A stretch of 21,979 nucleotides of DNA from positions 1 to 21,979 of the IMG/VR virus record IMGVR_UViG_3300003937_000125. One strand, 5' to 3'. The notes under the pieces were generated by a model, which worked only from the letters and a program-made list of their open reading frames with translations, had not been told where the DNA came from and did no database searches. A program made the translations under genes and the position numbers. This DNA is from a virus. Positions 6,673 through 21,261 of the stretch are shown here, one piece after another (within the stretch, counting starts at the first letter, position 1; the number at the start of each line of letters is the position of its first letter).

Positions 6673-6994
6673 CTAAACCACCCAAAAGCCGTGTAAAATT
6701 AATGTTCATCATGTGAACTGCGTTGGCTTCTTGCATTTTATTTATTTGCAAAAATTTATCAGCCATAGTCATTAAAGTGGCTTGTGTAATATATACTGCA
6801 TACTTAGACAAATTATCATCTGTTTGTATTTCCCAATAGATTACAAAGGTTGCTTTAATGTAAAGGTTGGCTTTACTCATGGTAGCCTGTTGTTGATTAA
6901 ACAAATCTAAGTATCTACCGGATAATTTCCTTCGCATATTTTTTGCCCATTGATTCATGGACTTGTCTGTTTTCCAATGTTTTTCATAATTCAT
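6659..6994 (-). CDS. Hypothetical helical protein, 111 aa
   Basis: This is a Met-, Gln- and Asn-rich, mainly helical sequence with no Cys and a DEEE C-terminus. No catalytic or binding motif is seen. Its ATG overlaps the stop of the previous gene (ATGA) inside one of the 18-nt junction cassettes (6991-7008), whose GGAGATGA serves as SD. It lies between two candidate chromatin or DNA-binding genes and the ligase. A histone fold was considered but the loop signatures are absent. Confidence 0.75.
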   Translation of the reverse strand: MNYEKHWKTDKSMNQWAKNMRRKLSGRYLDLFNQQQATMSKANLYIKATFVIYWEIQTDDNLSKYAVYITQATLMTMADKFLQINKMQEANAVHMMNINFTRLLGGLDEEE

Positions 6995-7008
6995 TCTTCT
7001 TCATCTCC
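6991..7008 (-). repeat. Junction cassette B (GGAGATGAAGAAGAATGA), copy 1
   Basis: This 18-mer codes for Gly-Asp-Glu-Glu-Glu-stop of one gene, supplies GGAGATGA as SD, and contains the ATGA stop/start overlap for the next. Exact copies are at 20122-20139 and 20337-20354, and shorter forms occur at 6659, 10491, 11095, 19982 and 21094. Confidence 0.85.
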
Positions 7009-7320
7009 ATTTATGGCAATTCTTACGGAAGCCATCAATTCCAATTCTTTCTTTAAGAAGGCATCTAATTCCATCTCTAGTTTTAGATATGCCATATTTA
7101 CATGGCTAGTAGTTACTCTACAACCGTGACCTGTATTTGGTGCTTTAATCATTTGGTTATCAACATACGCCGCAAACAAATCTATAATTGCACTTGCCTT
7201 CGTTCTAAATCTATCTACCGAACCATCGGCATATTGTCTCTTTGGATTAGCCAATCTTAGGGCTTTTCTTGCCTGTTGATAGGGAATCCTATTTTCTTGA
7301 TATTCTCTTTCTTCACTCAT
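6991..7320 (-). CDS. Second histone-fold candidate, 109 aa
   Basis: Residues 12-80 can be laid over a histone or TAF fold: first helix PYQQARKALRLA, a loop, a 28-residue central helix (34-62, including KASAIIDLFAAYVDNQM), then a loop and last helix GCRVTTSHVNMAYLKLE. The last element resembles the RVTxxxV and RKTVTAxDV segments of H2A, H4 and TAF proteins. The C-terminal 25 residues are helical and acidic, ending GDEEE. With the protein at 4558-5007 it could form a heterodimer, but that is inference. The start overlaps the stop of the PC4-like gene by 8 nt, and GAGGG stands 6 nt before it. The match is by pattern only, and an unrelated three-helix protein remains possible. Confidence 0.5.
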   Translation of the reverse strand: MSEEREYQENRIPYQQARKALRLANPKRQYADGSVDRFRTKASAIIDLFAAYVDNQMIKAPNTGHGCRVTTSHVNMAYLKLEMELDAFLKKELELMASVRIAINGDEEE

Positions 7321-8286: not shown

Positions 8287-8298
8287 ATTTATTCCTCC
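8284..8298 (-). repeat. Junction cassette A, copy 2 (GroEL end to next gene)
   Basis: This is an exact copy of GGAGGAATAAATATG. It ends groEL (Glu-Glu-stop) and starts the 8014-8286 gene 2 nt later. Confidence 0.85.
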
Positions 8299-9791
8299 AA
8301 TAACACAGCAACTTCAGTAGTCAAGAATAATGAAGCAATTGAGATTGCCGCATTAAAACTTCCCTTTGTTACCTTTACAGGGTCAAAGACACCTGCATCC
8401 CACAAGTTTTCATATTTTTCAGAAAGGGCATTGTAACCGTAGTGAGGTTCACTTAAATTATAAGCCAAACCACTTTTTCCACTATTTTGCAAAAGAACAA
8501 GAGCAGGTTTAGATAACGCATCATAAACAATCTTATGTCCAGTCTTCTCAATTGCTAAGGCATTTCTTGCATTTAATAGACCAATACCACCACCTGTAAT
8601 GATACCTTCGGACAATGCCGCTTTTGTTGCATTCAAAGCATCATCCAACCTTTCTTTCTTTTCACGCATTTCCATAGAAGAAGAAGCACCGATTTGAATA
8701 GTAGCAATACCACCACTTAAACGAGAGATACGCTTTTTCATACGCTTCTTATCGAAATCATCATCTAGTGTTTCAAACACTGACTTGAGAGTATTAATTC
8801 TCTCATCCGCAGAATTGCCACCTATAATAGTAGTAGTCTCCTTTGTAATAACAATCTTTTCACAAGAACCTAATTCTTCCTTGGTAATCAATTCTGGGTC
8901 ATCCTTACTTTCGTCAGTATAGAGGCGACCTCCAACAATAGAAACAATATCACCCAATTCATCCAATTGAGCATCTCCAAAATTAGGAGAAGTAACAACT
9001 GCTACTTCAATTGTCTTTTGAAGAACATTCATAATAATATTATTCAAAGCACTTCCATCCATTCCTTTCACGAACATTACCATTGGTCGCTTCTCAACCG
9101 CCGCTAATTCTAACATTGGTAGAATATCACTAAAGTTTTTAATCGCTAGATTAGAAGTAAAGATAAGAGGATTATTGAATTGAACCTTACCATCTTCACC
9201 ATTAGCCATTAAATGACTCAAATACCCTTCATCAATTTCTAATCCTTTACGGACAACTAAGTTTGTTCGGTGACTATTTGATTCTTCTACTGTAATAATA
9301 CCATCTCTTCCGACTTCATTAAGTGCCTCTTCAATTAAACCACCCAAGTAAGAATCATTGTTTGCCGCAATTGTAGCAACAGAAACAATATCGGCATCTC
9401 CAACATCTACTGCCATCATTTCAAGTGCTTCTACAATAATTGCCTGTGCTTCATCCAATTCCTTACGGAGTGTATGGAGGTTTGAAACATCAGCATTATT
9501 GATTTGTTCACACAATGCTCTTGCTATAATACAAGCAGTTGTTGTTCCATCACCGGAATTATCCTGTGCTTTACTCGCTAAGTTTTGAACCATTTGAACG
9601 CCCATTTGAACATAGGGGTCAGCATGTGATACATACTTAGTAATGGTAACACCATCGTTAATAATAACTGGTGGGTTTCCTTGAAGGATTACCGTTTTGG
9701 CTTGTGGGCCAAGTGTCGGTAATACTGTATCGGCTACTAAATTAATTCCTTGTAATAGTTTTTCTTTTACTTCGTTTCCATGTATAATCAT
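8289..9791 (-). CDS. groEL: Group I chaperonin (GroEL/Cpn60)
   Basis: The sequence tracks GroEL throughout: TLGPQAKTVIL at the N-terminus, NDGVTI (Asp of the nucleotide site), GDGTTTA (80-86), the apical and intermediate domain segments DGIITVEES and ITKETTTIIGG, RLSGGIATIQIGA, and DALNATKAALSEGIITGGG with the catalytic Asp (D398 in E. coli) conserved. It is clearly group I and not an archaeal thermosome. At 500 aa it ends right after the LTTEVAV helix and lacks the usual GGM-repeat tail, which in GroEL projects into the cavity. It should form folding chambers for viral or host proteins. A GroES-like gene is two genes upstream (10267-10494). The ATG at 9791 overlaps the previous stop (ATGA); its SD is GGGG. 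Confidence 0.97.
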   Translation of the reverse strand: MIIHGNEVKEKLLQGINLVADTVLPTLGPQAKTVILQGNPPVIINDGVTITKYVSHADPYVQMGVQMVQNLASKAQDNSGDGTTTACIIARALCEQINNADVSNLHTLRKELDEAQAIIVEALEMMAVDVGDADIVSVATIAANNDSYLGGLIEEALNEVGRDGIITVEESNSHRTNLVVRKGLEIDEGYLSHLMANGEDGKVQFNNPLIFTSNLAIKNFSDILPMLELAAVEKRPMVMFVKGMDGSALNNIIMNVLQKTIEVAVVTSPNFGDAQLDELGDIVSIVGGRLYTDESKDDPELITKEELGSCEKIVITKETTTIIGGNSADERINTLKSVFETLDDDFDKKRMKKRISRLSGGIATIQIGASSSMEMREKKERLDDALNATKAALSEGIITGGGIGLLNARNALAIEKTGHKIVYDALSKPALVLLQNSGKSGLAYNLSEPHYGYNALSEKYENLWDAGVFDPVKVTKGSFNAAISIASLFLTTEVAVLLEE

Positions 9792-10266: not shown

Positions 10267-10494
10267 TTACACCTCATATCCGTAAATCTTCGTAAAGGGA
10301 ACAACAGTTAAGTGTCCAATAGTCTGATACTTTGTTCCAGTATTATCGAAATAGACAGTCTTACCGATTAAGTATTTGTAGTCATCACTTGTAGATAAGC
10401 ACTTTCCTTTGTTATCAGATTTCATTACAATGCCACTCCTACTGGCTTGTTCCGTTTCAATAAGAATCCATTCTCCACAACCTTTCAACATCAT
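10267..10494 (-). CDS. groES: GroES-like co-chaperonin, 75 aa
   Basis: The order of elements is that of GroES: a strand (EWILIETE), a short loop with SRSGIVM where GroES has its mobile loop SAGGIVL, a Gly-Lys strand, then LIGKTVYFDNTGTKYQTIG and a final strand TVVPFTKIYGYEV matching the GroES end (LIMxxSDILAVIE). The GIVM tripeptide would dock into the GroEL apical groove. At 75 aa it is shorter than GroES (about 97), mainly through a reduced roof loop, as in other divergent viral co-chaperonins such as T4 gp31 in concept. Its place two genes before groEL in the same operon is the best support. The match is by pattern. Confidence 0.72.
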   Translation of the reverse strand: MMLKGCGEWILIETEQASRSGIVMKSDNKGKCLSTSDDYKYLIGKTVYFDNTGTKYQTIGHLTVVPFTKIYGYEV

Positions 10495-10826
10495 TCTTCT
10501 TCCTCCTTTCCTACTCTATGGTGTGGATAATTAGGTAATTGTGAACCTAAAGAACGAATTGTTGCCCACAAATGGTCTCTCGTGTCTTGAGTATCAGAAT
10601 TAAGAGCCGCATCTACCGTAAATTGCATAGCCTTTTTAATATCTAAACTTTTCACATCAGTGTCATTATCTAAAAAGTATTGAACCTTTGCAAGTTTCTC
10701 ATTAAAAGCAATTCTTAATTTAGCCAGTCGTCTTTCATTTTCAACTGTCCAATCCTGTAATGCTTTAGGGTAGTATTCTTTTAGCCAACCAATATCTATT
10801 GTTACTGTTCCAAATATTTTATCCAT
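10491..10826 (-). CDS. Hypothetical protein, 111 aa
   Basis: This is a mostly helical, charged protein (WTVENERRLAKLRIAFNEKL) with a KEEEE C-terminus. No motif is recognised. The stop overlaps the start of the GroES-like gene (ATGA), and the GAG-GAA-GAA-GAA codons supply that gene's SD. Its own start overlaps the previous stop by one base (TAATG) behind GAGGAGG. It belongs to the chaperonin operon by position. Confidence 0.8.
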   Translation of the reverse strand: MDKIFGTVTIDIGWLKEYYPKALQDWTVENERRLAKLRIAFNEKLAKVQYFLDNDTDVKSLDIKKAMQFTVDAALNSDTQDTRDHLWATIRSLGSQLPNYPHHRVGKEEEE

Positions 10827-11098
10827 TATTCTTCCTCCTCAAATCCTGCAACTCGCACCCAAGCCCTATTCATATTTCTATCAACAAAGGTATAGATATG
10901 TTCCTTGTAAAACTTATCCATCTTTTTAGTGTGTTTACCTGCTGTATTCCAAGTAACGCCATTCTTACCCTTTGGTATGTTATTATCGTTAGGGTGTTGT
11001 TGTTGATGGCGTTTATGTCTTTCAGTGAGAGTAATCTTTTCATATTCTCTCATTGGTATCTCTTGCATCTTACTTGCGTTTCTATCTCCTATTTTCAT
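10826..11098 (-). CDS. Hypothetical basic protein, 90 aa
   Basis: This is a His-, Lys- and Asn-rich protein (RHKRHQQQHPNDNN) with a C-terminal aromatic/Arg segment (YTFVDRNMNRAWVRVAGF) and an EEEE end. No known family is seen; the basic composition could suit nucleic-acid binding. It lies directly after the JAMM protease gene with an ATGA overlap, so it might be a partner or substrate of that enzyme, which is inference from position. Confidence 0.78.
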   Translation of the reverse strand: MKIGDRNASKMQEIPMREYEKITLTERHKRHQQQHPNDNNIPKGKNGVTWNTAGKHTKKMDKFYKEHIYTFVDRNMNRAWVRVAGFEEEE

Positions 11099-11643
11099 TC
11101 TTCTTCACTTCCTGCTTGTGTTTGTATTCGGTAACTTCCGTCTTTTTCTTTTATCTCTAAACTGTTTCTTTTGGCATTAGTCCAAAATCCATAGTGTTCA
11201 TCTCCACCAATGACATATGCTGTTTGCATAACTGTATTAAATGTATTTACAGTAGTCCAATCTGTTCCGCTAAAATAAGCCGAACCGAAAGGATGAGTGT
11301 GAAACCAACACTTCATAGGCAATTCCATTCCCTTTGGTGGCATAGGAAAAGAAACATAGCCGCTTGTTCCCGATGAAATGTGCGCTCTATTCTTAGCATC
11401 AATTACTACTTGAACTTCAAGGTTTGGTAGCATTTGAGTAGAAGCATACCAAATCGAGTAATGCCATGACTTAGAGTGTATTGCATCCTCTCCGTTCATA
11501 TCAAACTCTTCAATCCAATTGTTCTGCAAGAAAGAAATTATTTCGTTTCTTGCTTCTGCGACCTGCATTTGATATTCCCAGTCAATATCATTAATTCCAT
11601 ATCTTTCTTCATTTTGTGCGCTTTTTTCACTCATTCTTCCCAT
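11095..11643 (-). CDS. JAMM/MPN+ zinc metalloprotease (JAB domain)
   Basis: The JAMM signature HxHx(10)D is exact: H115-T-H117-P, then SGTD with D128, in WFHTHPFGSAYFSGTDWTTV. Preceding strands (VQVVIDAKNRAHISSG) and the following TAYVIGG fit the MPN core. A conserved upstream Glu should complete the site but cannot be fixed by eye. JAMM enzymes cleave isopeptide or peptide bonds after ubiquitin-like modifiers or process phage tail proteins. Two genes away is an E1-like enzyme, and the genome carries a GG-ended ubiquitin-like protein, which favours deconjugation or maturation of that modifier. The ATG at 11643 is preferred to a GTG at 11652, since GAGGTGA stands 5 nt before it. Length 182 aa. 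Confidence 0.9.
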   Translation of the reverse strand: MGRMSEKSAQNEERYGINDIDWEYQMQVAEARNEIISFLQNNWIEEFDMNGEDAIHSKSWHYSIWYASTQMLPNLEVQVVIDAKNRAHISSGTSGYVSFPMPPKGMELPMKCWFHTHPFGSAYFSGTDWTTVNTFNTVMQTAYVIGGDEHYGFWTNAKRNSLEIKEKDGSYRIQTQAGSEEE

Positions 11644-11644
11644 T

Positions 11645-12619
11645 TCATTCACCTCGTAGTTTGTTCAATTTTGCCTCAAGATTTGCCGCCTTGCGTTCCT
11701 TCTTGAGTTGTTTTCTTGCCATTTTAGCCGCCTTCCGTCGCTTAAAATACCCGTTCTTATAGGATTCTATCTCTTTAGCCTTTCGTGCTTTAATGAAGAC
11801 ACTGGCTTCCATAAGTAAAGACATATGTTCAGGTTGTGCGCTTTCAAAAAGAGACTCAAGCCGAGATGCAATAGTCCCATAGTCTCGGCCATAACGCTCT
11901 TTTGCTTCCAAAATAGACAATTCATAGAAGTTACAAAGCAAATCAAAGTCTTCTTCCTTAGACCATTGATTTTCTGTCTTATTAGTGACCTTCATTTTAT
12001 GTAACTTTGTATTGGGGCGTTTCTTTGCTACGATTTTGGTATTGGCTTTTGCTTTTTTCCTAAGAGAATAGTAACGCTGCTTTACGGCACTTTCAGTCCT
12101 ATTGGGTAATTTTAGTGCGACTGCTGACATAGCACTATGACAAGATAGAATCGCATTATTTTCTGATTCTGTCCAAGGAATATTCTTCATTCCCTTTCTA
12201 CTCGACTTAACAGTATTTACCTGCAATTCTAAAGACTGAATCCTTTCACTAGCCATATCCTTAGTAAACTCCCCACTAAAAGACTTATCATAGAGTTGGT
12301 CTTCTAATGTCTTTTTTAGTTTCTTACTACCATTAGGCAGGGTTAGCCCTGCAATATAACTGCATTGTTTTCTTGTTGCTGGTTCATTTTTCCAATTCAT
12401 ATTTTCACTTCCTTTTTCTTCAATTAATTCATCCATTTCTTTTTTTCTTTTGTGATACTGATTCATAGCATTCTTAACAGTAGTTGTAATATTAAAGTGC
12501 TGTTGAAGCCTACGGACAATTTGAGACCACTTAGCCTTTTTAATGTTCCTTTGCTCTGTAATATAATCTACAACTTCTTCTGTCCAAATGGTTCTTACTT
12601 TTCTTATTTTCTCACTCAT
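11645..12619 (-). CDS. Protein with three Myb/SANT-like repeats
   Basis: Three segments have the Myb/SANT pattern of a Trp followed by acidic residues and two further helices: residues 10-58 (IWTEEVVDYI, KWSQIVRRL), 147-190 (IPWTESENNAIL, LPNRTESAVKQRYYSLRKK) and 217-262 (NQWSKEEDFDLL, YGRDYGTIASRL). Between the first and second, residues 75-133 (ATRKQCSYIAGL, FTKDMASERIQSL) resemble a small domain seen in phage proteins, in which TxxQxxYIxxL is followed by a T/KxxAS-x-I helix. The last 45 residues are a long basic helix. It is probably a sequence-specific DNA-binding protein, such as a transcription or packaging factor. It lies between the E1-like and JAMM genes, overlapping the E1 stop (ATGA). 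Architecture is read by pattern; repeats 2 and 3 are the clearest. Confidence 0.7.
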   Translation of the reverse strand: MSEKIRKVRTIWTEEVVDYITEQRNIKKAKWSQIVRRLQQHFNITTTVKNAMNQYHKRKKEMDELIEEKGSENMNWKNEPATRKQCSYIAGLTLPNGSKKLKKTLEDQLYDKSFSGEFTKDMASERIQSLELQVNTVKSSRKGMKNIPWTESENNAILSCHSAMSAVALKLPNRTESAVKQRYYSLRKKAKANTKIVAKKRPNTKLHKMKVTNKTENQWSKEEDFDLLCNFYELSILEAKERYGRDYGTIASRLESLFESAQPEHMSLLMEASVFIKARKAKEIESYKNGYFKRRKAAKMARKQLKKERKAANLEAKLNKLRGE

Positions 12620-13173
12620 ACATTCACAACCTTAAAATCACTTACTTCTTCCTTATTGAAATATCTTTGAATCCACTGTGCGCCCATACCTGCTATTGCT
12701 ATTTGCATAAAGTGAACATTCTTATTTGTTCCATCCCAAGAATCGCCTTGGCAACTAAACGAACCATCTTCACCCATAAGCAAAGTATCGTGCATTTTAA
12801 CATCTGCCATATGGCTAACAAGGGCGGCGTTCCTGCCCTGCGCTCGTAAGTCCAACCATTTAATACTTGTGTTGTATAAGGTTCGACGAACACTCAAATT
12901 ATCAACACAACAGATAACCAAATCAAATCCATCCATTTGCTTTGCTGTGAGAATAGGAAACTTAGAATAATGATTGACTGATTCATACTCATTCATCATT
13001 ACACTAGCCTTATTCTGCCCAACATGACCTTTCTTAAAGTTTTGATAGGTTAAGTTTTTTGTTTCAACTGAATCGGGGTCTGCAACAGTAATGTTGTATA
13101 GTCCGACTTTATCTAAGTATTGAGTCAAGAATGACCCAATTCCACCTGTTCCAATTATTAGTATTTTTCTCAT
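12616..13173 (-). CDS. E1/ThiF-like ubiquitin-like-protein activating enzyme (minimal)
   Basis: A Rossmann ATP-binding loop GTGGIG (8-13) is followed by the acidic strand end ADPDSVETKNL (D32, N40), VGQNKA with Lys55, and VICCVDNLSVRRTL with D91, N92 and R96. These are the adenylation residues of MoeB/ThiF/E1 enzymes. The usual NLxRQ reads NLTYQ, so the ATP-contacting Arg is Tyr43. Cys141 (FSCQGD) is the candidate thioester Cys. At 185 aa it is only the adenylation core; MoeB/ThiF are about 240 and have CxxC zinc pairs, absent here. It would adenylate the C-terminal Gly of a modifier such as the protein at 18746-18946. The start overlaps the previous stop (ATGA). Confidence 0.88.
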   Translation of the reverse strand: MRKILIIGTGGIGSFLTQYLDKVGLYNITVADPDSVETKNLTYQNFKKGHVGQNKASVMMNEYESVNHYSKFPILTAKQMDGFDLVICCVDNLSVRRTLYNTSIKWLDLRAQGRNAALVSHMADVKMHDTLLMGEDGSFSCQGDSWDGTNKNVHFMQIAIAGMGAQWIQRYFNKEEVSDFKVVNV

Positions 13174-13523
13174 ACTCCCAACTCCTCTTCATTTAGCATA
13201 GCAATAATCATCGCATCAAACTTTCTATAATCATTAATTCTATTGCAAAAATCATAAAAATTAGCACTGACGGCATTCATTACTTGATGTTCAATGTCTT
13301 CCATAAGACAATAATATTCTCCCGCCATCATTCTTTCTCTAAACAATTCCCATTCTCCATAGGATAGTTCCTTTTGATGATTAAAAACATATTCATAATC
13401 TACCTGCCTGTCAATTTTTGCAGCATTTACAGCGATTTTTTCAATGTCATTTAATGCTGTTTTTTTCGATTTCTTCAGCGTTTCAATATCTGGCGCATAA
13501 TTTTCTTTATCTATTTTTCTCAT
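13170..13523 (-). CDS. Hypothetical helical protein, 117 aa
   Basis: No family is recognised. It has a Lys-rich N-terminus and several amphipathic helices (LSYGEWELFRERMMAG, YYCLMEDIEHQVMNAV). It precedes the E1-like gene with an ATGA overlap and follows the 115-aa Cys-pair gene with a one-base TAATG overlap. GGAGG stands 7 nt from its start. Being coupled to the E1-like gene, it is a candidate partner or target of that system, which is only positional inference. Confidence 0.8.
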   Translation of the reverse strand: MRKIDKENYAPDIETLKKSKKTALNDIEKIAVNAAKIDRQVDYEYVFNHQKELSYGEWELFRERMMAGEYYCLMEDIEHQVMNAVSANFYDFCNRINDYRKFDAMIIAMLNEEELGV

Positions 13524-13870
13524 TAGTATTCCTCCTTATCAATTTCTTCTGCAAGAAATTCTCCTTTATTTAATCTAATAAATCTTTTTTGCTTGCTTTT
13601 CAAAAACTTTGAATAAAATTCAGAGTTTAGAATAACTCCATCAAGTTCTTCAATATGATAAGATTGAGCATATCTGAAAATAGTCCACCAATCAGCATCT
13701 AAATTAGAGTTTTTATGAATCCATCTAGCAATAGTTTTTAATGAATATCCTTCCATTTGCTTTTCAATTCTTTCAACCATACATTCTTCGCAGTAGTCTT
13801 TACTGCCTTCACTATGGTATATCTCTAATCCATGTGTTTCACATGGTATCTTAATTTCTATTTCTTTCAT
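13523..13870 (-). CDS. Hypothetical protein with CxxH/CxxC zinc knuckle, 115 aa
   Basis: Residues 10-30 hold CETHGLEIYH and then CEEC, four possible zinc ligands in a small knuckle. The remainder is helical with aromatic residues (DADWWTIFRYAQSYHIEEL). No catalytic motif is seen. AAAGGAGA precedes the ATG, and the gene begins 2 nt after the TFB stop, so it is translated with TFB. A DNA- or RNA-polymerase-binding role is possible but unproven. Confidence 0.8.
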   Translation of the reverse strand: MKEIEIKIPCETHGLEIYHSEGSKDYCEECMVERIEKQMEGYSLKTIARWIHKNSNLDADWWTIFRYAQSYHIEELDGVILNSEFYSKFLKSKQKRFIRLNKGEFLAEEIDKEEY

Positions 13871-13872
13871 TT

Positions 13873-14733
13873 TTATTCTCTCCTTTCTAATTCACTTATT
13901 TGTTTGCCTTTTACTTGGGCACAAGTTTTTAATCCAATTAAACCTAAAAGGTCTTTGGTTTGTTTCTGTATTGCCGACCAAGAAGCATCTGTCTTCTCGG
14001 CAATAAGCGTCAATGTTATTCTTGGATATACAAAGATGTTCTTTGAAATCCAACAAATGCTTTCATAGTAAGCGTTTCTTTTATTATAGTCGCTACTATT
14101 AACTATTCTCTCAAACATTTCTAAAGTTTCCATACATTGAGAAATGAAAACAATATCATCTGTTATTTGATTGGCTACTTTCTTTAGTAAGTATTGGGGG
14201 TCGGCTTCCATATGTCTCATTCTACTACCATAATAGGTAGATATTCTGCGTATCAAACGATTCAATGACTTTCCCGAACAACTAAACTCTTCACTCAATT
14301 TTCTAATCTTGATTGGAGTTTTATTTTCTTTCATCACAAACCACACTACTGCGGTCGCTCTTACTTCTAATGAAACTCCCTTGAATACATTCTTAGAATG
14401 TAATTCTCTATACACTTCTCCTACCCTATCTCTAAGAGTAGTAGTAGAATCAAATACATTAGAAAGAACCATTTGGCACATTACTACGCCTTTCTTCAGG
14501 TGGTTGTCTTTATCACTATATCTATTGTGGATATGGGCCATTTTCCCATTACCAGAAACAATACTACCTAATCCTGTTCTTTCGGAAGATTTTAACAATA
14601 CTTCCTTATCTACTGACATTTGCCGCTCTTCAAACATTTCAGTTACAGCGATAAGGCCGCATTCTACACAGGCGGTTTCGCCCATTACTTCATCATATTC
14701 AAAATTACTTGTGTTGCACTCTAAGCATTTCAT
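13873..14733 (-). CDS. tfb: Transcription factor B (TFB/TFIIB homologue)
   Basis: The N-terminus is a TFIIB zinc ribbon: C3-x2-C6 and C22-x2-C25 (KCLECN to CVECGLI). A short linker with ERTGLGS resembles the B-reader/linker end, and two helical cyclin-like repeats follow (about 80-180 and 185-280). Archaeal TFB bridges TBP at the TATA box and RNA polymerase. Cellular TFBs are about 300 aa; this one is 286. The start at 14733 places Met two residues before the first Cys and overlaps the end of the upstream gene by 29 nt; a longer start at 14760 would add nine residues unlike the family. A viral TFB could direct polymerase to viral promoters such as those at 855-864 and 21696-21702. Confidence 0.9.
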   Translation of the reverse strand: MKCLECNTSNFEYDEVMGETACVECGLIAVTEMFEERQMSVDKEVLLKSSERTGLGSIVSGNGKMAHIHNRYSDKDNHLKKGVVMCQMVLSNVFDSTTTLRDRVGEVYRELHSKNVFKGVSLEVRATAVVWFVMKENKTPIKIRKLSEEFSCSGKSLNRLIRRISTYYGSRMRHMEADPQYLLKKVANQITDDIVFISQCMETLEMFERIVNSSDYNKRNAYYESICWISKNIFVYPRITLTLIAEKTDASWSAIQKQTKDLLGLIGLKTCAQVKGKQISELERRE

Positions 14734-15880
14734 CAAAATCCATCCTATTCGTATTTTCATCTGCGACTAAATATCGCTTAATTGTATTTACTATTTGTAT
14801 TGTATGAGTATCATTAATTAAGGCTAATGCCCTTGTTGCGAATTGGTCGCCAAGAGAAGAACCCTTTGCCATATTATCAATACATATTGGGCCTTTCCAT
14901 TGCCAAACACATTCCGATAATGGTATTGGCATGTTATTTTCATCAGTTTTAGGCTTTGGCTGACAAACAAAAGTAGATACCATTTGAATATCGCTCTTGT
15001 ATTCATTAGCATTTAGTAGCCAATCGTAGCCTTGTCCTTTGATATAAAGAGACTTGGGTTCTTTTCCATCCATGACTAGATGAAGATTATTTGGCGATTC
15101 TTCTACTAATTCATGTAGCAATTGAATCGCTCTATCTTCTACAATGTCCTGTTGTCGGTTCTGTCTTAGGAATTGACGCATTAATTCTAAATCTGAATCA
15201 GTTGGTTCTTTCCCTAACAAGTAAGTATATAATCGCTTAATTCCCATATGCTTAAACTTACCTTGTTTCTTGTCATGTAAGAAAAAGGTGCAAAACTTAT
15301 CTAATTCTTTATTAGGAATGCTTGCCCAAACGCCATCACTTATCTCAATAGCGCATTCTTTTTCTGAAATCTGCTGAACATTCAAGCGAACATCTACTTT
15401 CTCAAAATTGACATAATAATGAAATGGCACTCTGTTCTCAAGACAATACTTTACATTCTCAGATAAACTTAAAACTTTCATCAAGGATGACATTAACTTA
15501 ACTGGTGATTTTTCACGAATTGCCGAAACTGTTACTCTAGCCAAGGCATTGGCAATAGTGCTAGCCGATTCGGATTTACCATTCAATCGAAATCTACCAT
15601 TAGTGCGTTGTAATGCTATCGGTAGAGACTCTATGTTTATAACAATGGGTTCTGACTTAAATCGAATTCTAGGTGCGTTGTAATGCACTTTCTTAGCCAA
15701 TGTTCTTTTCCAAAACTGAACAAGACCCGCATGAATTGGGTCTTTTTCATTCCTTTGATATTCGACCTTGTATTCCCAACCACTACTATAATTAATAATA
15801 CTATTACTGGTTACAGTAACAGTGGGGTAGTATTCTCGACTATCATCTGGTTTTCTTATTCTTATTCCTATTCTATCCAT
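14705..15880 (-). CDS. Hypothetical protein, 391 aa
   Basis: I do not recognise this protein. The first 200 residues are beta-rich and basic; the middle has a Lys-rich stretch (HDKKQGKFKHMGIKRLYTYL) and helices (QFLRQNRQQDIVEDRAIQLL). The last 100 residues end in helical DQFATRALALINDTHT. There is no signal peptide, membrane segment or P-loop. The ATG at 15880 is preferred to a GTG at 15889, as GATGTGA sits 5 nt before it. It directly precedes TFB and overlaps it, so a transcription-related or replication-initiator role is possible. Confidence 0.82.
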   Translation of the reverse strand: MDRIGIRIRKPDDSREYYPTVTVTSNSIINYSSGWEYKVEYQRNEKDPIHAGLVQFWKRTLAKKVHYNAPRIRFKSEPIVINIESLPIALQRTNGRFRLNGKSESASTIANALARVTVSAIREKSPVKLMSSLMKVLSLSENVKYCLENRVPFHYYVNFEKVDVRLNVQQISEKECAIEISDGVWASIPNKELDKFCTFFLHDKKQGKFKHMGIKRLYTYLLGKEPTDSDLELMRQFLRQNRQQDIVEDRAIQLLHELVEESPNNLHLVMDGKEPKSLYIKGQGYDWLLNANEYKSDIQMVSTFVCQPKPKTDENNMPIPLSECVWQWKGPICIDNMAKGSSLGDQFATRALALINDTHTIQIVNTIKRYLVADENTNRMDFDEMLRVQHK

Positions 15881-15885
15881 AATCT

Positions 15886-16056
15886 TCACATCATATATAT
15901 ATTGTCATGTTTAATTTTCATAGCACAGTTATCGTGCATTTCTTTTCTAATTTCTTCTGGTATTAGCAACTGTTGGCCGCATATGCGACAAGAGGTTGCT
16001 ATTCTTTTTTTGTAAGTCCTATGACTTGTTGTATAATTGGGGTTCTTTTCTTTCAT
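15886..16056 (-). CDS. 56-aa basic protein with Cys/His knuckle
   Basis: This small gene lies between 15880 and 16053. It encodes a basic protein with CRIC (residues 23-26) and a later HDNC (41-44), four possible zinc ligands, and ends in Met-Met. AGGTGG stands 6 nt before the ATG. The start overlaps the previous stop (ATGA), and the stop lies 5 nt before the next gene, so it fits the operon's spacing exactly. Function is unknown; a nucleic-acid- or protein-binding knuckle is likely. Confidence 0.72.
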   Translation of the reverse strand: MKEKNPNYTTSHRTYKKRIATSCRICGQQLLIPEEIRKEMHDNCAMKIKHDNIYMM

Positions 16057-16391
16057 GATTTCCACCTAAATGCTATTTTGCAGACCTCGCAATTGTAGTC
16101 GCATTCGTCTTTGTTATTTTCGTGATAGATAAAAGCATTTGCTCTTTCTACCAAATTCTTATCCTTCCAAGTATCAAAGCCCAGTTCTATTGCCTCGTCT
16201 AATTCCCATAAAGCAGCATTAACACTTTGCTCAATTCTAAACAATCTGTCTTCCTCCGGTAACTCTTCGCAAACTTCTAAGGCTAATAATATTTTTCCTT
16301 TGCTATCTTTTGAAAATTGATTTAACAGCGACACTACCGCTTTCTTATAGCCCGAATAGGGTAATTTTCTATAAGAAAGCGGGCGAGGCAA
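16053..16391 (-). CDS. Hypothetical protein, 112 aa, TTG start
   Basis: The frame has no ATG near its start. A TTG at 16391 preceded by GAGGTGGTTAA is the likely initiator, making the first residues MPRPLSYRKL. The body is helical and acidic (LALEVCEELPEEDRLFRIEQ), and the C-terminus has CDYNCEVC, a possible metal-binding or redox cluster. It begins 9 nt after the ribonucleotide reductase stop, so it may assist that enzyme, for example as a reductant, but this is inference. No family is recognised. Confidence 0.75.
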   Translation of the reverse strand: MPRPLSYRKLPYSGYKKAVVSLLNQFSKDSKGKILLALEVCEELPEEDRLFRIEQSVNAALWELDEAIELGFDTWKDKNLVERANAFIYHENNKDECDYNCEVCKIAFRWKS

Positions 16392-16400
16392 TTAACCACC

Positions 16401-18275
16401 TCAAATATCGCAAAGTCCACCGGCACAAGCAATTTCGCCGGATAAATCAGTATTGTCTTCACTTTCGATTATCTTAGTTAAATCAATAGAACCAAGGAGA
16501 GCATACATATCATTGTATTGTTCCTTACTAATAGTCTCAAATGGTGCTTGTTTGTATGTTCCACCATCATAAGGAAGAACAGCCAATCCATTGTAGTAAT
16601 GGCGGTTAAACCACATCCATTCTGCAACATCATCCCATTCGTCTTCTTTGATTGAAATAGTCGCTGAAACATTATGAGTGTTCATTCCATCAACATGCCC
16701 ATTATTAACCCACCTAATACTAAATTGTTTCACCCTTTCAAGTAAATCAAATACACTTTCTTTTCGAGTGATTGCATTATCTGGTGCTTTTTGAGGAATA
16801 CTAATTACGGCTTGTTCTGTTGGATTGAAATACTCATCCTCCACTAATTCGGGATGATTGTTTGCCAAATAAGAATAAATTGCTTCATTCTTTCCAACTC
16901 GAACACGACGAATATAATACTCATCATGCCAAGCATGTATTCCCGAAGAAGAACCTAATACAAGAGAAGTTGTTCCTGCGGGCTTAACACAAGTTACTCT
17001 ACTAGCAGGATTAATTTGTAGTATTTTAGCAACTCTACGGTTCTCTAATTTTGCTTGTAGAGAAGCCGATTCAATATCCAATTTCTCAACGATATTAGAT
17101 GCAATACCTGTCATTGACACACCCAACAAAGAGTCTTTCTCAGTAGTCTTTCGCCAAATATCTCTCAAGTAGTGAAAATCAGTATATCCTGCTTGTAGTG
17201 TTCCTAAAAACGAAGCCGCTTTAACTCGGTCTTCTAAATCCTTTTGTCCTTCAATGTTTGAAGCATTTACTTCTGTCAAATTACAGAATTGAAACGGTCT
17301 TAGTGCAATTTCACAACATGGATTTGTTCCCCAATCTTTATCATTACTAAAATAAATTCCGGGTTCTCCACTACCACTCAATTGTATTCTTTCCCAAATA
17401 GACATGAAAAATTCTTTATTGATTCTATGTCTAAGTAATACTGCTGAATTATTTGCTCTTCCTCGTTGTGGGCTATTTTCCCACCAATTACCGGATTTGC
17501 AAGAAAGCATCTTAGCATCATCAGCACTAAATAGACTAATCATAGCCGCACGACGAATACCACCTGCTAATACCGCATCAGCAATATGGCACATAATATC
17601 ATGTGCTTGAATAGGTTCAAGTTTAGAACCATTAGGGATATTTTGTAGCATACCTTCGACCTTTACTAAACATTCCCGCAAAGGTTGAGGGCCGGGGGCT
17701 TTTCCACCAGAAGTCTTCAAAAGAGAACCTTTGGGTCTAATATCAGAATAGTCAAACTTAGGGCTATCCTTTTTAATTCCCATGTAACATTCCATCAATA
17801 CTTTAACAGCGTCTGCCCAACCTTCAATAGAATCATTAATAAGATAACGACGCTTTCTTGCGTCATTAGGTTGTTGGATTTCTGGTAATTGTTCAATATG
17901 GTGTCTTTGGACAGAATACCCAACCCCCGTTCCACCGAGAAGAAGAAACATAGATTCACTAAAAGCAATATAGGAGTCAATAGGCATATAAGCGCAGTTA
18001 TAAACCCTATTCGGGCTAATCTCCACAGGCTTTCCGCCAAATTGCATAGAGCGCATTGACGGGAGGATTTTTCGGGTTCTGATAAAGTTAGTATATATGT
18101 CATGTATTTCATTCTCCAGTTGAGGGTATGTTTTTATGTGCATTTGTTCGTTTCTTGAGACTATTTCATCCCAAGTTTCTCGTCTATTTAATTCCGGTAA
18201 AAACCGAGCATATTTCATATGCACAGTAATATCAGATAGTATTTGAATTGCTTTGTTTTCTTTGTTTTCTTTCAT
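16401..18275 (-). CDS. nrdJ: Class II (B12-dependent) ribonucleotide reductase, monomeric type
   Basis: This enzyme makes deoxyribonucleotides from ribonucleotides using adenosylcobalamin. Active-site residues line up with the Lactobacillus leichmannii triphosphate reductase: Cys94 (VYNCAY), the NPCCEI motif with Cys320 as thiyl and Glu322, Cys331 in FCNL exactly 11 residues later, the VKPAGTTS loop, and a C-terminal shuttle pair C617-AGGL-C622. At 624 aa it is shorter than the bacterial enzyme (about 740). Start: the ATG at 18275 follows AGGTG and lies 2 nt after the upstream stop. A start at 18362 would overlap the neighbour by 85 nt and add residues unlike the family. Class II needs neither oxygen nor a second subunit, which suits a virus in variable oxygen. 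Confidence 0.95.
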   Translation of the reverse strand: MKENKENKAIQILSDITVHMKYARFLPELNRRETWDEIVSRNEQMHIKTYPQLENEIHDIYTNFIRTRKILPSMRSMQFGGKPVEISPNRVYNCAYMPIDSYIAFSESMFLLLGGTGVGYSVQRHHIEQLPEIQQPNDARKRRYLINDSIEGWADAVKVLMECYMGIKKDSPKFDYSDIRPKGSLLKTSGGKAPGPQPLRECLVKVEGMLQNIPNGSKLEPIQAHDIMCHIADAVLAGGIRRAAMISLFSADDAKMLSCKSGNWWENSPQRGRANNSAVLLRHRINKEFFMSIWERIQLSGSGEPGIYFSNDKDWGTNPCCEIALRPFQFCNLTEVNASNIEGQKDLEDRVKAASFLGTLQAGYTDFHYLRDIWRKTTEKDSLLGVSMTGIASNIVEKLDIESASLQAKLENRRVAKILQINPASRVTCVKPAGTTSLVLGSSSGIHAWHDEYYIRRVRVGKNEAIYSYLANNHPELVEDEYFNPTEQAVISIPQKAPDNAITRKESVFDLLERVKQFSIRWVNNGHVDGMNTHNVSATISIKEDEWDDVAEWMWFNRHYYNGLAVLPYDGGTYKQAPFETISKEQYNDMYALLGSIDLTKIIESEDNTDLSGEIACAGGLCDI

Positions 18276-18277
18276 AT

Positions 18278-18652
18278 TTAACACCTGTATGTTTTTGCGT
18301 TTGGTAATTCTAGAAGAGAAGTAAATGAATGAAGCCATTCGCCATCTTTGTAAATGACCCATTCTTTTTCTTCAATAAACTTCCAGTTATCAAAATCTTC
18401 GACTGCTGTTTCACCATGCTTAGAAATAAGCATTTCTACACAATCGAAGGTATTACCTTGATAATTTATAATTGAATGTCCTTTAGCGCATATTTTTCCA
18501 GTCTTACCCTGCGCTATAATATACATATCTTCATAAAAGTCGGGTTTAAAGACCGCTTTCTCTCCGAAGATATGGGGAATAAGCATTTGCCAACCTTTTG
18601 TTTGTAAAAAAAGATTTAATGCTTCCTTAGAGATAAAAATAGATAAGTCCAT
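18278..18652 (-). CDS. Hypothetical protein, 124 aa
   Basis: The protein begins MDLSIFISKEALNLFLQTKG and has mixed strands with a Lys/Gly segment (IIAQGKTGKICAKGHS) and many aromatics near the end. No family is recognised. The ATG at 18652 is chosen because a longer frame from 18721 would read straight through the GC-rich hairpin at 18666-18710. The SD is weak. Its stop lies 2 nt before nrdJ and it should be co-translated with it, so a link to nucleotide metabolism is possible. Confidence 0.75.
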   Translation of the reverse strand: MDLSIFISKEALNLFLQTKGWQMLIPHIFGEKAVFKPDFYEDMYIIAQGKTGKICAKGHSIINYQGNTFDCVEMLISKHGETAVEDFDNWKFIEEKEWVIYKDGEWLHSFTSLLELPNAKTYRC

Positions 18653-18665
18653 GTTTGCCACACTC

Positions 18666-18710
18666 AAAAAAGGGGCAGGGGATTGCCTCGTAAGGCAACA
18701 CCCCCACCCC
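18666..18710 (-). terminator. Long GC-rich hairpin followed by six U
   Basis: On the minus strand GGGGTGGGGGTGTTGCCT pairs with AGGCAATCCCCTGCCCC around a TACG tetraloop, allowing a few G-U pairs and one bulge, to give a stem of about 17 pairs. TTTTTT follows at 18671-18666. This is the form of an intrinsic terminator and would end the transcript of the small-gene cluster at 18746-21923. It is only 14 nt before the next ATG, so it could instead act as a 5'-leader structure if a promoter lies at 18733-18740. Confidence 0.7.
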
Positions 18711-18732
18711 AAGATTCGCAAGTTGTGGTCGG

Positions 18733-18740
18733 TTTAATAA
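18733..18740 (-). promoter_or_regulatory. Possible TATA-like box (TTATTAAA)
   Basis: The AT-rich octamer lies inside GGTTATTAAACC, directly after the stop of the ubiquitin-like gene and about 25 nt before the hairpin at 18666-18710. It is the only TATA-like element in this gap and could drive the 18278-18652 and nrdJ genes. The match to the archaeal consensus is modest. Confidence 0.35.
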
Positions 18741-18745
18741 CCTGC

Positions 18746-18946
18746 TTATCCGCCAACGATAGCAGGAGTCAAATTAACTGAAGTAACTTCATCCCAGTTA
18801 ATTTCAGTAATATTCTCCCTTGAAACCAATACATTGTCAATAAACACCCAATGAGTCGGGTGTGTATCAATTTGTTCAAGAACCCCACTACTTTCAAGTG
18901 TGAGGTCGGTGTGGCCTGTTTCATTCAAAATCCGTAATTTAATCAT
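18746..18946 (-). CDS. Ubiquitin/ThiS/MoaD-like protein ending in Gly-Gly, 66 aa
   Basis: The 66 residues follow a beta-grasp order: strand IKLRILNE, strand TDLTLES, a short helix (VLEQIDTHP), strand THWVFIDNVLVS, then WDEVTSVNLTPAIVGG. The ending is that of MoaD/ThiS sulfur carriers and ubiquitin-like modifiers (compare VxLxPAVxGG), with the mature di-glycine as the last two residues. The length suits ThiS/MoaD (65-85 aa). Such C-termini are adenylated by E1/ThiF enzymes, and this genome has one (12616-13173) plus a JAMM protease (11095-11643). It could be a protein modifier or a sulfur carrier. GGAGG lies 7 nt before the ATG, which overlaps the previous stop. No Lys-rich tail follows GG, so no processing is needed. 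Confidence 0.72.
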   Translation of the reverse strand: MIKLRILNETGHTDLTLESSGVLEQIDTHPTHWVFIDNVLVSRENITEINWDEVTSVNLTPAIVGG

Positions 18947-19985: not shown

Positions 19986-20125
19986 TCTTCTCCCTCCGCA
20001 TTGTCGCCATCTATCCATCTACCGTTTACATAGAAAAAGCCGCAATCATTAAGTAAATCATGGCAGTCTCTTAACCTCGATATCAATACTTTATTTCGTT
20101 CTTGTAAACGCACTATTTCTTTCAT
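19982..20125 (-). CDS. Hypothetical protein, 47 aa
   Basis: This short gene fills the gap between 19985 and 20122. It begins MKEIVRLQERNKVLISRLRD, a helix with a possible short coiled coil. It continues with a Cys-x-x-x-x-x-x-Cys segment and YVNGRWIDGD, and ends GEE. It starts in an exact 18-nt junction cassette (GGAGATGAAGAAGAATGA) and its last codons form the SD of the next gene. Function is unknown. Confidence 0.7.
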   Translation of the reverse strand: MKEIVRLQERNKVLISRLRDCHDLLNDCGFFYVNGRWIDGDNAEGEE

Positions 20126-20139
20126 TCTTCTTCATCTCC
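20122..20139 (-). repeat. Junction cassette B, copy 2
   Basis: This is an exact 18-nt copy joining the 20122-20340 gene to the 47-codon gene at 19982-20125. Confidence 0.85.
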
Positions 20140-20340
20140 AAATAATTCTTCATAACCATCTCCATTCTCATAATCTTCACGAAGACTACTTTCATAATCA
20201 CTCATTCCAACTCGATATGCTATGGGGTCAATTCGATATAATCCCACTGATGGGGAATACTCCAAACTGCCAATTTTAATCTTTGGGTAGCATTCGTCTA
20301 ACATATCATCATACAATTCTTTTAATAGTTTTTCATTCAT
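20122..20340 (-). CDS. Hypothetical acidic protein, 72 aa
   Basis: This is a strongly acidic small protein (LYDDMLDECYPKIKIG, YENGDGYEELFGDEEE) with several Tyr. It might mimic nucleic acid or bind a basic partner, but no family is recognised. Both its start and its end lie in exact copies of the 18-nt cassette, so it is a cassette-bounded gene. Confidence 0.75.
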   Translation of the reverse strand: MNEKLLKELYDDMLDECYPKIKIGSLEYSPSVGLYRIDPIAYRVGMSDYESSLREDYENGDGYEELFGDEEE

Positions 20341-20441: not shown

Positions 20442-21097
20442 TGTAATTTAGCGTTATATGTTTGGTTGAACGCTTCAACCTTTTTTGCCATCATATTATC
20501 ATAATGGTTCTTAGGCCACCAATTAGGCGGCGATGTTTTCCATGATGCAAACTCCCACTTACCTGTAAGGTAATAGTGTTTGTAAGAATCAATTACAAAA
20601 TCCCAATCTTTAGCATTAGGATTACGATTATAGTATTCGTTTTCATCCAGTCTATATTTATCAAACATAGCAATAGTTACCGGAGTTAATCCCCTATGGG
20701 AAAATACCCATTCTTTGTGAATTCGCCAGTTATACAAGTAGATTCCATCAATTATCCTGTCATGTGAGCCATGTCTTTTACCATAGCGAAGGGTATATTC
20801 TTCGCAAAGGGCCAAACCATGCTGACAAAGCCAAAGAAAGTTGGCTTTAGATTGCCTCGCCCAAATGGTTGAGGGGTGGTTTAGCATGGCGGGCTTCATC
20901 AATTTTGACTTTGAGTGCTTGTGAAAACGCTTAAGGTCTTTCAATTGAGGTTCTTCATCCCAATCTTGAATGTATTGCATGTAAAGAATGTTAGTATGAA
21001 GCATTTGACATGTTTCAGTTGGCATCTTAACTACATGCTTATCAATCATTTGTATTGCTGATTCTGCGGGGTCTTTTGATAGTGCAAATATATTCAT
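20432..21097 (-). CDS. Conserved phage/virus protein of unknown function (MNIF..DKHVVKM family)
   Basis: The N-terminus MNIFALSKDPAESAIQMIDK followed by HVVKMPTETCQML, the later NHPSTIWARQSKANFLWLCQH and LCEEYTLRYGKRH, and the end TGKWEFASW are the recurring blocks of a protein I know from cyanophages and other marine phages, usually left without a function. Conserved His, Trp, Arg and Lys suggest an enzyme acting on nucleic acid or nucleotides, which is inference. Length 221 aa is in the usual range. GTGTGAAGAAGA precedes the ATG, which overlaps the previous stop (ATGA). Confidence 0.7.
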   Translation of the reverse strand: MNIFALSKDPAESAIQMIDKHVVKMPTETCQMLHTNILYMQYIQDWDEEPQLKDLKRFHKHSKSKLMKPAMLNHPSTIWARQSKANFLWLCQHGLALCEEYTLRYGKRHGSHDRIIDGIYLYNWRIHKEWVFSHRGLTPVTIAMFDKYRLDENEYYNRNPNAKDWDFVIDSYKHYYLTGKWEFASWKTSPPNWWPKNHYDNMMAKKVEAFNQTYNAKLQEE

Positions 21098-21261
21098 TCT
21101 TCTTCACACCCCGATTTGTAAGCATCAAGCATAATGTCAATTACACTACAAACAGCATATTGCATATCATGGTCGAAACCATTTACTTGTTCTCTCGCTA
21201 CTTCTTTAATATACATTAGTAGCATATATTGGTCTTCTTTTAGTTGGGGTAATTCTTTCAT
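21094..21261 (-). CDS. Hypothetical acidic helical protein, 55 aa
   Basis: This small gene lies just before the 20432-21097 gene. It begins MKELPQLKEDQYMLLMYIKE and has two helices with a single Cys in the second, ending GCEEE. Its ATG overlaps the previous stop (ATGA) behind GGAG, and its stop overlaps the next start. Function is unknown. Confidence 0.7.
   Translation of the reverse strand: MKELPQLKEDQYMLLMYIKEVAREQVNGFDHDMQYAVCSVIDIMLDAYKSGCEEE

Follow-up and report, generated by a model that had tools for sequence, protein, structure and literature searches.

The stretch of viral DNA analysed here (the window) comprises 21,979 bases of the IMG/VR virus record IMGVR_UViG_3300003937_000125 and is a fragment of a larger virus genome. 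Its minus strand carries genes for a small ubiquitin-like protein (Ubl) ending in GG, an E1/ThiF-like adenylation protein (E1) and a JAMM/MPN+ metalloprotease (JAMM), together with the neighbouring genes listed in Table 1. An earlier note on this DNA had claimed the three genes on one strand, as a 66-amino-acid (aa) open reading frame (ORF) with the C-terminus VNLTPAIVGG, a 185-aa ThiF/E1 core and a JAMM protease with an exact HxHx(10)D motif. All three ORFs were present as described, including the ThiF domain and the full JAMM active-site motif. The new element is a virus-borne set of Ubl, E1 and JAMM which is strongly conserved, shows variable capping of the Ubl and has no recognised E2.

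The Ubl is predicted to take a beta-grasp fold. The AlphaFold2 model, based on a 42-sequence alignment, has a predicted local distance difference test score (pLDDT) of 93.2 and the order strand-strand-helix-strand-strand-(short helix)-strand, as in the beta-grasp; its C-terminal tail is looser (pLDDT 68 in the last block vs. 93–97 elsewhere). Almost all of the 50 Foldseek matches listed from the PDB were ubiquitin, NEDD8, SUMO, ISG15 and MoaD, with probabilities of up to 0.98 (ubiquitin and MoaD). Among viral proteins, an uncharacterised protein of a phage ranked first (E = 1.3e-3), ahead of viral ubiquitin-like proteins. The structure check proposed in the earlier note thus returned the fold expected of a modifier. 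None of the 42 family members gave a ThiS, MoaD or ubiquitin match in Pfam, and sequence-only searches for Ubl homologues in Pfam, PHROGs and the PDB produced nothing convincing. Pfam PinA (T4 inhibitor of Lon protease) was matched by 23 of the 42 relatives, with a best E-value of 1.4e-4. In the nearest relatives, a Shine-Dalgarno-like GGAGG lies just 5′ of the Ubl gene. One genome scan for a cellular source of the Ubl yielded only two contigs of an Altibacter metagenome-assembled genome (MAG) and a partial 34-residue match in a Bdellovibrio MAG. The former, contigs L092 and L093 of Altibacter sp. EAC109, encode the Ubl at 73–74% identity and are probably virus contigs binned into the MAG.

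The terminal GG is kept in 74 of 74 distinct Ubl relatives. This invariance rules out a GG ending by chance, and the variable end that would have spoken against a modifier was not observed. Most relatives possess one or two further residues, which the earlier note did not include: GG is the last dipeptide in 16 of the 74 proteins and is followed by one residue in 6 and by two residues in 52. Within the latter group, the preceding block reads PAIVGG in 49 proteins and is a variant of it in 3, and the residues after GG vary (SL, NL, NY, CY, HY, QE and others). On a tree of 91 genomes built from E1 and a 394-aa protein encoded at the same locus, the presence of the tail changed at least five times and its length at least eight times. 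Capped precursors are spread over the drawn tree, and several lineages, including that of the window, stop exactly at GG. Such repeated changes, together with the variable residues, make the site behind GG look like a point of processing and GG itself like the functional end; the pattern is the one expected if a protease removes the rest.

The set also encodes a protease. The JAMM protein contains E79-x38-H118-T-H120-x7-S128-xx-D131 (numbering of the 185-aa form), which is the complete EXnHS/THX7SXXD motif described for AfJAMM (PMC300881), and this site is invariant in 63 of 63 aligned relatives. The single sequence from the window matches PF14464 (Prok-JAB) weakly (4.6e-4, under the curated cut-off), 19 of 20 homologues match the same family, and the profile of the JAMM family matches the eukaryotic deubiquitinases AMSH and RPN11 (E-values from 0.0026). 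Tail-less lineages keep the JAMM gene with an intact active site. Since GG is already exposed in these lineages, trimming alone is insufficient to account for the protease, which probably does more than process precursors and may, for example, take the modifier off something.

The E1 protein matches PF00899 with E = 4.7e-19 (68.9 bits against a cut-off of 28.1) and has a Rossmann-type ThiF domain with GxGGxGS; its best solved relative is MoeB (PDB, 1.5e-7). Residues D32, N40, Y43, K55, D91, N92, R96 and C141 are invariant in 64 sequences, and alignment to MoeB places the catalytic D62, K86 and D130 of that enzyme at D32, K55 and D91. Neither CxxC (zinc) pairs nor a rhodanese domain were found in the viral protein. 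Judged from its sequence, the E1/ThiF core is real but minimal, and Cys141 could serve as a thioester cysteine.

The three genes are retained together. Their co-conservation was sampled within one virus lineage, distant magrovirus groups lying outside the sample. With the DNA ligase as a neutral marker, 118 loci were picked; where at least 8 kb of upstream sequence was available, both E1 and JAMM were present (51/51), and in none was E1 found without JAMM. Searches of 47 whole ligase-picked contigs detected Ubl in 37, E1 in 38 and JAMM in 39, and in those contigs inspected for a missing gene the sequence stops before the locus. In a second set, of 23 virus contigs, every contig with E1 but no Ubl breaks off at most 5 kb from E1. 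E1 accompanies Ubl in all 220 Ubl loci with enough downstream sequence and Ubl accompanies E1 in all 132 E1 loci with enough upstream sequence, two counts that overlap and are not independent. Thus, wherever contigs reach far enough, the genes were not found apart, a joint conservation in every covered relative which the earlier note did not include. In all three genes, nonsynonymous polymorphism (pN) is far below synonymous polymorphism (pS). The distance of about 5.5 kb between Ubl and E1 had been considered a weakness of the operon argument, and this worry is largely removed by the variability of the intervening genes: the ribonucleotide reductase (RNR) gene between them was undetected in 100 of 229 loci. 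As RNR comes and goes while the set persists, the Ubl–E1 stretch is not simply frozen. One record, IMGVR_UViG_3300021958_000021 (184,733 bases; L019 and L042), holds both Ubl and E1 twice, with about 90 kb separating the copies, and this duplication suggests that it probably joins two different virus genomes.

Table 1. Features of the window and of the related crAss-like phage loci.
Feature	Position	Strand	Evidence and remarks
Ubl, 66 aa, ends VNLTPAIVGG, tail-less form	18746..18946	-	AlphaFold2 fold, Foldseek, invariant GG, pN far below pS
Minimal E1/ThiF adenylation domain, 185 aa	12616..13173	-	PF00899; MoeB best PDB match
JAMM/MPN+ metalloprotease	11095..11643	-	ATG at 11643; alternative in-frame upstream GTG at 11652 gives 185 aa
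Protein of about 391–394 aa with Cys336	14705..15880	-	Always syntenic; weak candidate E2/RWD-like partner
Class II (B12-type) RNR	16401..18362	-	PF02867 and PF21995; optional insert between Ubl and E1, outside the set
TFB-like transcription factor	13873..14760	-	PF08271 zinc ribbon, 3.7e-5, under cut-off; position same in relatives
Cpn60/TCP-1 chaperonin	8289..9791	-	PF00118, E = 4.1e-45; context, supports magrovirus-like identity
crAss-like JAB + ThiF pair	L339:6256-8654 (crAss001 gp77, gp76); L338:6598-8654		Near B12-type RNR

Besides the genes in Table 1, the window encodes a replication factor C (RFC) small-subunit-like AAA protein and an ATP-dependent DNA ligase. Magroviruses are tailed viruses tied to the marine archaeal order Poseidoniales (PMC10768690; PMC12999244). 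The Magrovirales profile includes TFB, RFC-S, ATP ligase, a chaperonin and a genome of about 90–110 kb; the gene content of the window agrees with it, and long relatives measure 92–97 kb. Because of this agreement with the descriptions of the International Committee on Taxonomy of Viruses (PMC10768690, PMC12999244), we infer that the window comes from a head-tailed archaeal virus of magrovirus-like type; its precise family and host are inferred in the same way. Several other features of the stretch can be mentioned. The product of positions 20432-21097 matches Pfam Pyr_excise (pyrimidine dimer DNA glycosylase; E = 1.2e-6) and PHROG 624 (7e-48). Near the Cpn60 gene, a 75-aa ORF (10267-10494) resembles the co-chaperonin GroES and has no Pfam match. 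Between E1 and JAMM, positions 11645-12619 encode a Myb/SANT-like DNA-binding protein, which was undetected in some relatives and is among the fastest changing of the genes measured. EEE endings are common (proteins at 6991-7320, 10491-10826, 11095-11652, 20122-20340 and 21094-21261), probably since the following gene has its Shine-Dalgarno sequence (GAGGAGGAATGA type) there, which reads as Glu codons ahead of the overlapping stop/start.

The gene context bears on the possibility that JAMM processes the Ubl for a task in virion structure or assembly, much as has been suggested for lambda tail protein I and protein K, and that E1 plays an unrelated role. Pairs of Ubl and JAB genes do occur in phage tail clusters (PMC1779556), and the lambda proteins likewise combine a phage-encoded Ubl domain with a JAB protease; however, they come without E1, lie in a tail cluster and involve an NlpC/P60 fusion. 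In the window, the neighbours are replication and expression genes (RNR, TFB, ligase, RFC, chaperonin), the JAMM protein has no NlpC/P60 domain, E1 is always present and the Ubl is a single domain stopping at GG. A structural role is therefore very improbable, and its tail-assembly form (lambda TAPI-like) is ruled out by the gene context and the presence of E1.

The capped GG end points to another possibility, namely that the Ubl is a sulfur carrier. Once activated by E1, its end would be converted to a thiocarboxylate, from which an enzyme of the host or of the virus would take sulfur for tRNA thiolation or for making a cofactor or cysteine. JAMM would then uncap the precursor, like QbsD and PtmS1, or free the product from the carrier, like Mec+. 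Carriers with one or two capping residues behind GG, together with a JAMM protease and a MoeB-type E1, make up established systems (PMC6006322). The viral set resembles QbsCDE, PtmS1/S2/S4 and CysO-Mec+-MoeZ in that 58 of the 74 Ubls have a putatively removable extension of one or two residues behind GG, alongside JAMM and E1. Moreover, the Ubl is of ThiS/MoaD size, MoeB is the best structural relative of E1, CysH has been reported in magroviruses (PMC10160649) and missing steps could come from host enzymes. Unlike in those systems, no domain of a sulfur donor or acceptor enzyme was detected: rhodanese, PAPS reductase/CysH, ATP_bind_3 and PALP (PF00581, PF01507, PF01171 and PF00291) were not found in 16–20 long relatives, in which the controls were positive. 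The viral E1 also has neither the rhodanese domain nor the CxxC zinc pairs, and JAMM persists where GG is already exposed. We regard a sulfur-carrier function as the less probable of the two main explanations.

A possible E2 is the 394-aa protein, which occurs alongside Ubl and E1 at every one of the 229 loci and whose Cys336, in the motif GPICIDN, is invariant in 47 sequences. The AlphaFold2 model (pLDDT 88.7) shows near the C-terminus a helix, four strands, the cysteine and a helix. This order resembles UBC/RWD folds and makes the protein a weak candidate, a lead rather than a finding. Foldseek gave weak matches (probability of 0.23 or less), some of them to Ctf19-Mcm21 and CENP-P, kinetochore proteins with RWD domains. 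No Pfam E2 family was matched within the family of the 394-aa protein, and both the PDB profile search and the profile-profile comparison with crAss001 gp78 and gp75 were negative. The Prok-E2_B search gave no match, but its positive control was also silent.

In our opinion, the viral set is best read as a system of reversible Ubl conjugation, with a probability of roughly 0.55. In this reading, the E1-like protein would activate the 66-aa Ubl by adenylating its C-terminal glycine and would pass it to lysines of viral or host proteins, either directly or through a cysteine, be it Cys141 in E1 itself or Cys336 in the 394-aa protein. JAMM, cleaving behind GG, would have two tasks, namely to mature the tailed precursors and to strip the modifier from its targets. 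What the computation itself shows is that the genes exist, that a beta-grasp is predicted, that GG never varies and the tail does, that the JAMM site is complete and that the genes are strictly conserved together. Conjugation is favoured because the Ubl is predicted to be a beta-grasp protein, GG is kept in 74/74 relatives behind which the tail varies, JAMM is kept in tail-less lineages, E1 retains most ATP-site residues, the set is co-conserved and sulfur partner domains were not found. Of the virus-run modifier cycle suggested in the earlier note, the existence of the Ubl/E1/JAMM set is well supported, and conjugation is its more probable use, ahead of sulfur transfer. A bolder version is doubtful: a lineage of abundant marine archaeal viruses would possess a complete reversible Ubl cycle in which the 394-aa protein serves, via Cys336, as an E2 of a new kind, and would use it to remodel host or viral proteins during infection.

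Several observations weigh against conjugation. The Foldseek matches of the Ubl in the PDB have E-values of only 0.013–0.07 and template modelling (TM) scores of about 0.4–0.6. The absence of a visible E2-like or E3-like gene pointed out in the earlier note still holds, as none was recognised by sequence, with the Prok-E2_B control silent as stated above. A capped GG end together with JAMM and E1 is also the anatomy of sulfur carriers (PMC6006322), so the anatomy fits both readings. Co-conservation inside one virus lineage means that the block was retained by shared inheritance and was not repeatedly and independently assembled. Finally, the ORF of E1 begins at the first strand and has no N-terminal Arg-finger segment, and the position of Arg73 of MoeB is occupied by the invariant Tyr43. 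Both Arg73 and the N-terminal Arg finger have functional roles in MoeB-type enzymes, and with the segment absent and Arg73 replaced by Tyr the activity of the viral E1 is not assured.

A minimal E1 without the usual Arg might bind but not catalyse, and this would suit a decoy or inhibitor role in which Ubl, E1 and JAMM disturb a SAMP/Urm1-like system of the host by competing for UbaA or stripping host modifiers. Haloarchaea do use SAMPs with JAMM proteases (PMC4443979). Nevertheless, D32, K55 and D91 of E1 and the JAMM active site are all invariant, which is unexpected in pure decoys, and three matched components would be redundant. This role appears improbable.

The viral set has counterparts in cellular systems. 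Bacterial Ubl/E1/E2/JAB operons are known, in which JAB is proposed to mature the Ubl and to take it off again (Iyer, Burroughs, Aravind 2006, PMC1779556). Similar to these operons, and also to Bil and to Cap2/Cap3 of the cyclic-oligonucleotide-based antiphage signalling system (CBASS), the window encodes a GG-ended Ubl, an E1-like ThiF protein and a JAB protease together. Unlike all of them, the viral set is virus-borne and, as far as known, not an antiviral defence; unlike the bacterial operons, it has no recognisable E2 and extends over about 8 kb, interrupted by optional genes. The archaeal system of SAMP, UbaA and HvJAMM1, as presented in PMC4443979 and PMC4895103, shares with it a small beta-grasp modifier, a MoeB-type E1, a JAMM protease and the lack of a known dedicated E2, but the viral genes are virus-encoded and co-located, and the viral E1 is shorter and without the usual residues. 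Archaeal JAB genes are seldom linked to Ubl genes (PMC2948915).

A viral parallel is found in crAss001, where gp77 and gp76 are adjoining JAB (IHSHNNMATFFSGTD) and ThiF genes near a B12-type RNR, with an E1 profile match of E = 1e-14. This phage differs in being a bacterial virus with an E1 of 383 aa that has an extra N-terminal part, and the Ubl profile gave no match in the whole crAss001 genome. The start of gp79 (L339:4244-4921), upstream of gp77-gp76, looks beta-grasp-like by eye. About 40 residues from its start, the crAss001 ThiF protein (L339:7503-8654) contains TAIVGG, sharing AIVGG with the end of the magrovirus Ubl, which may be a coincidence.

Magroviruses are said to have been described first in Philosof 2017. 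We found no published naming of the viral Ubl or of its JAMM partner, in a search that did not extend to Philosof 2017 and Prabhu 2025, the likeliest places for it. Neither ThiF, ubiquitin nor JAB is mentioned in the main text of the magrovirus paper PMC10160649 or of a survey recruiting magrovirus reads. E1 by itself has a precedent: a MoeB/ThiF gene has been reported to rank among the commonest auxiliary genes in predicted archaeal viruses, with a link to ubiquitination (PMC8276007).

In a widespread marine virus lineage, probably infecting archaea, modifier, activating enzyme and protease form a fixed set. Where bacterial ubiquitin-like conjugation (Bil, CBASS) is concerned, archaeal and bacterial viruses have chiefly been known as its targets, and here the virus may bring its own machinery for tagging proteins or for moving sulfur. 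The natural switch between capped and uncapped modifiers provides a direct comparative test of the role of JAMM. The JAB-ThiF pair of crAss-like gut phages suggests a wider viral use of such chemistry. If conjugation is true, the set would be a minimal, virus-owned Ubl cycle and a model for ubiquitin-like conjugation without a standard E2.

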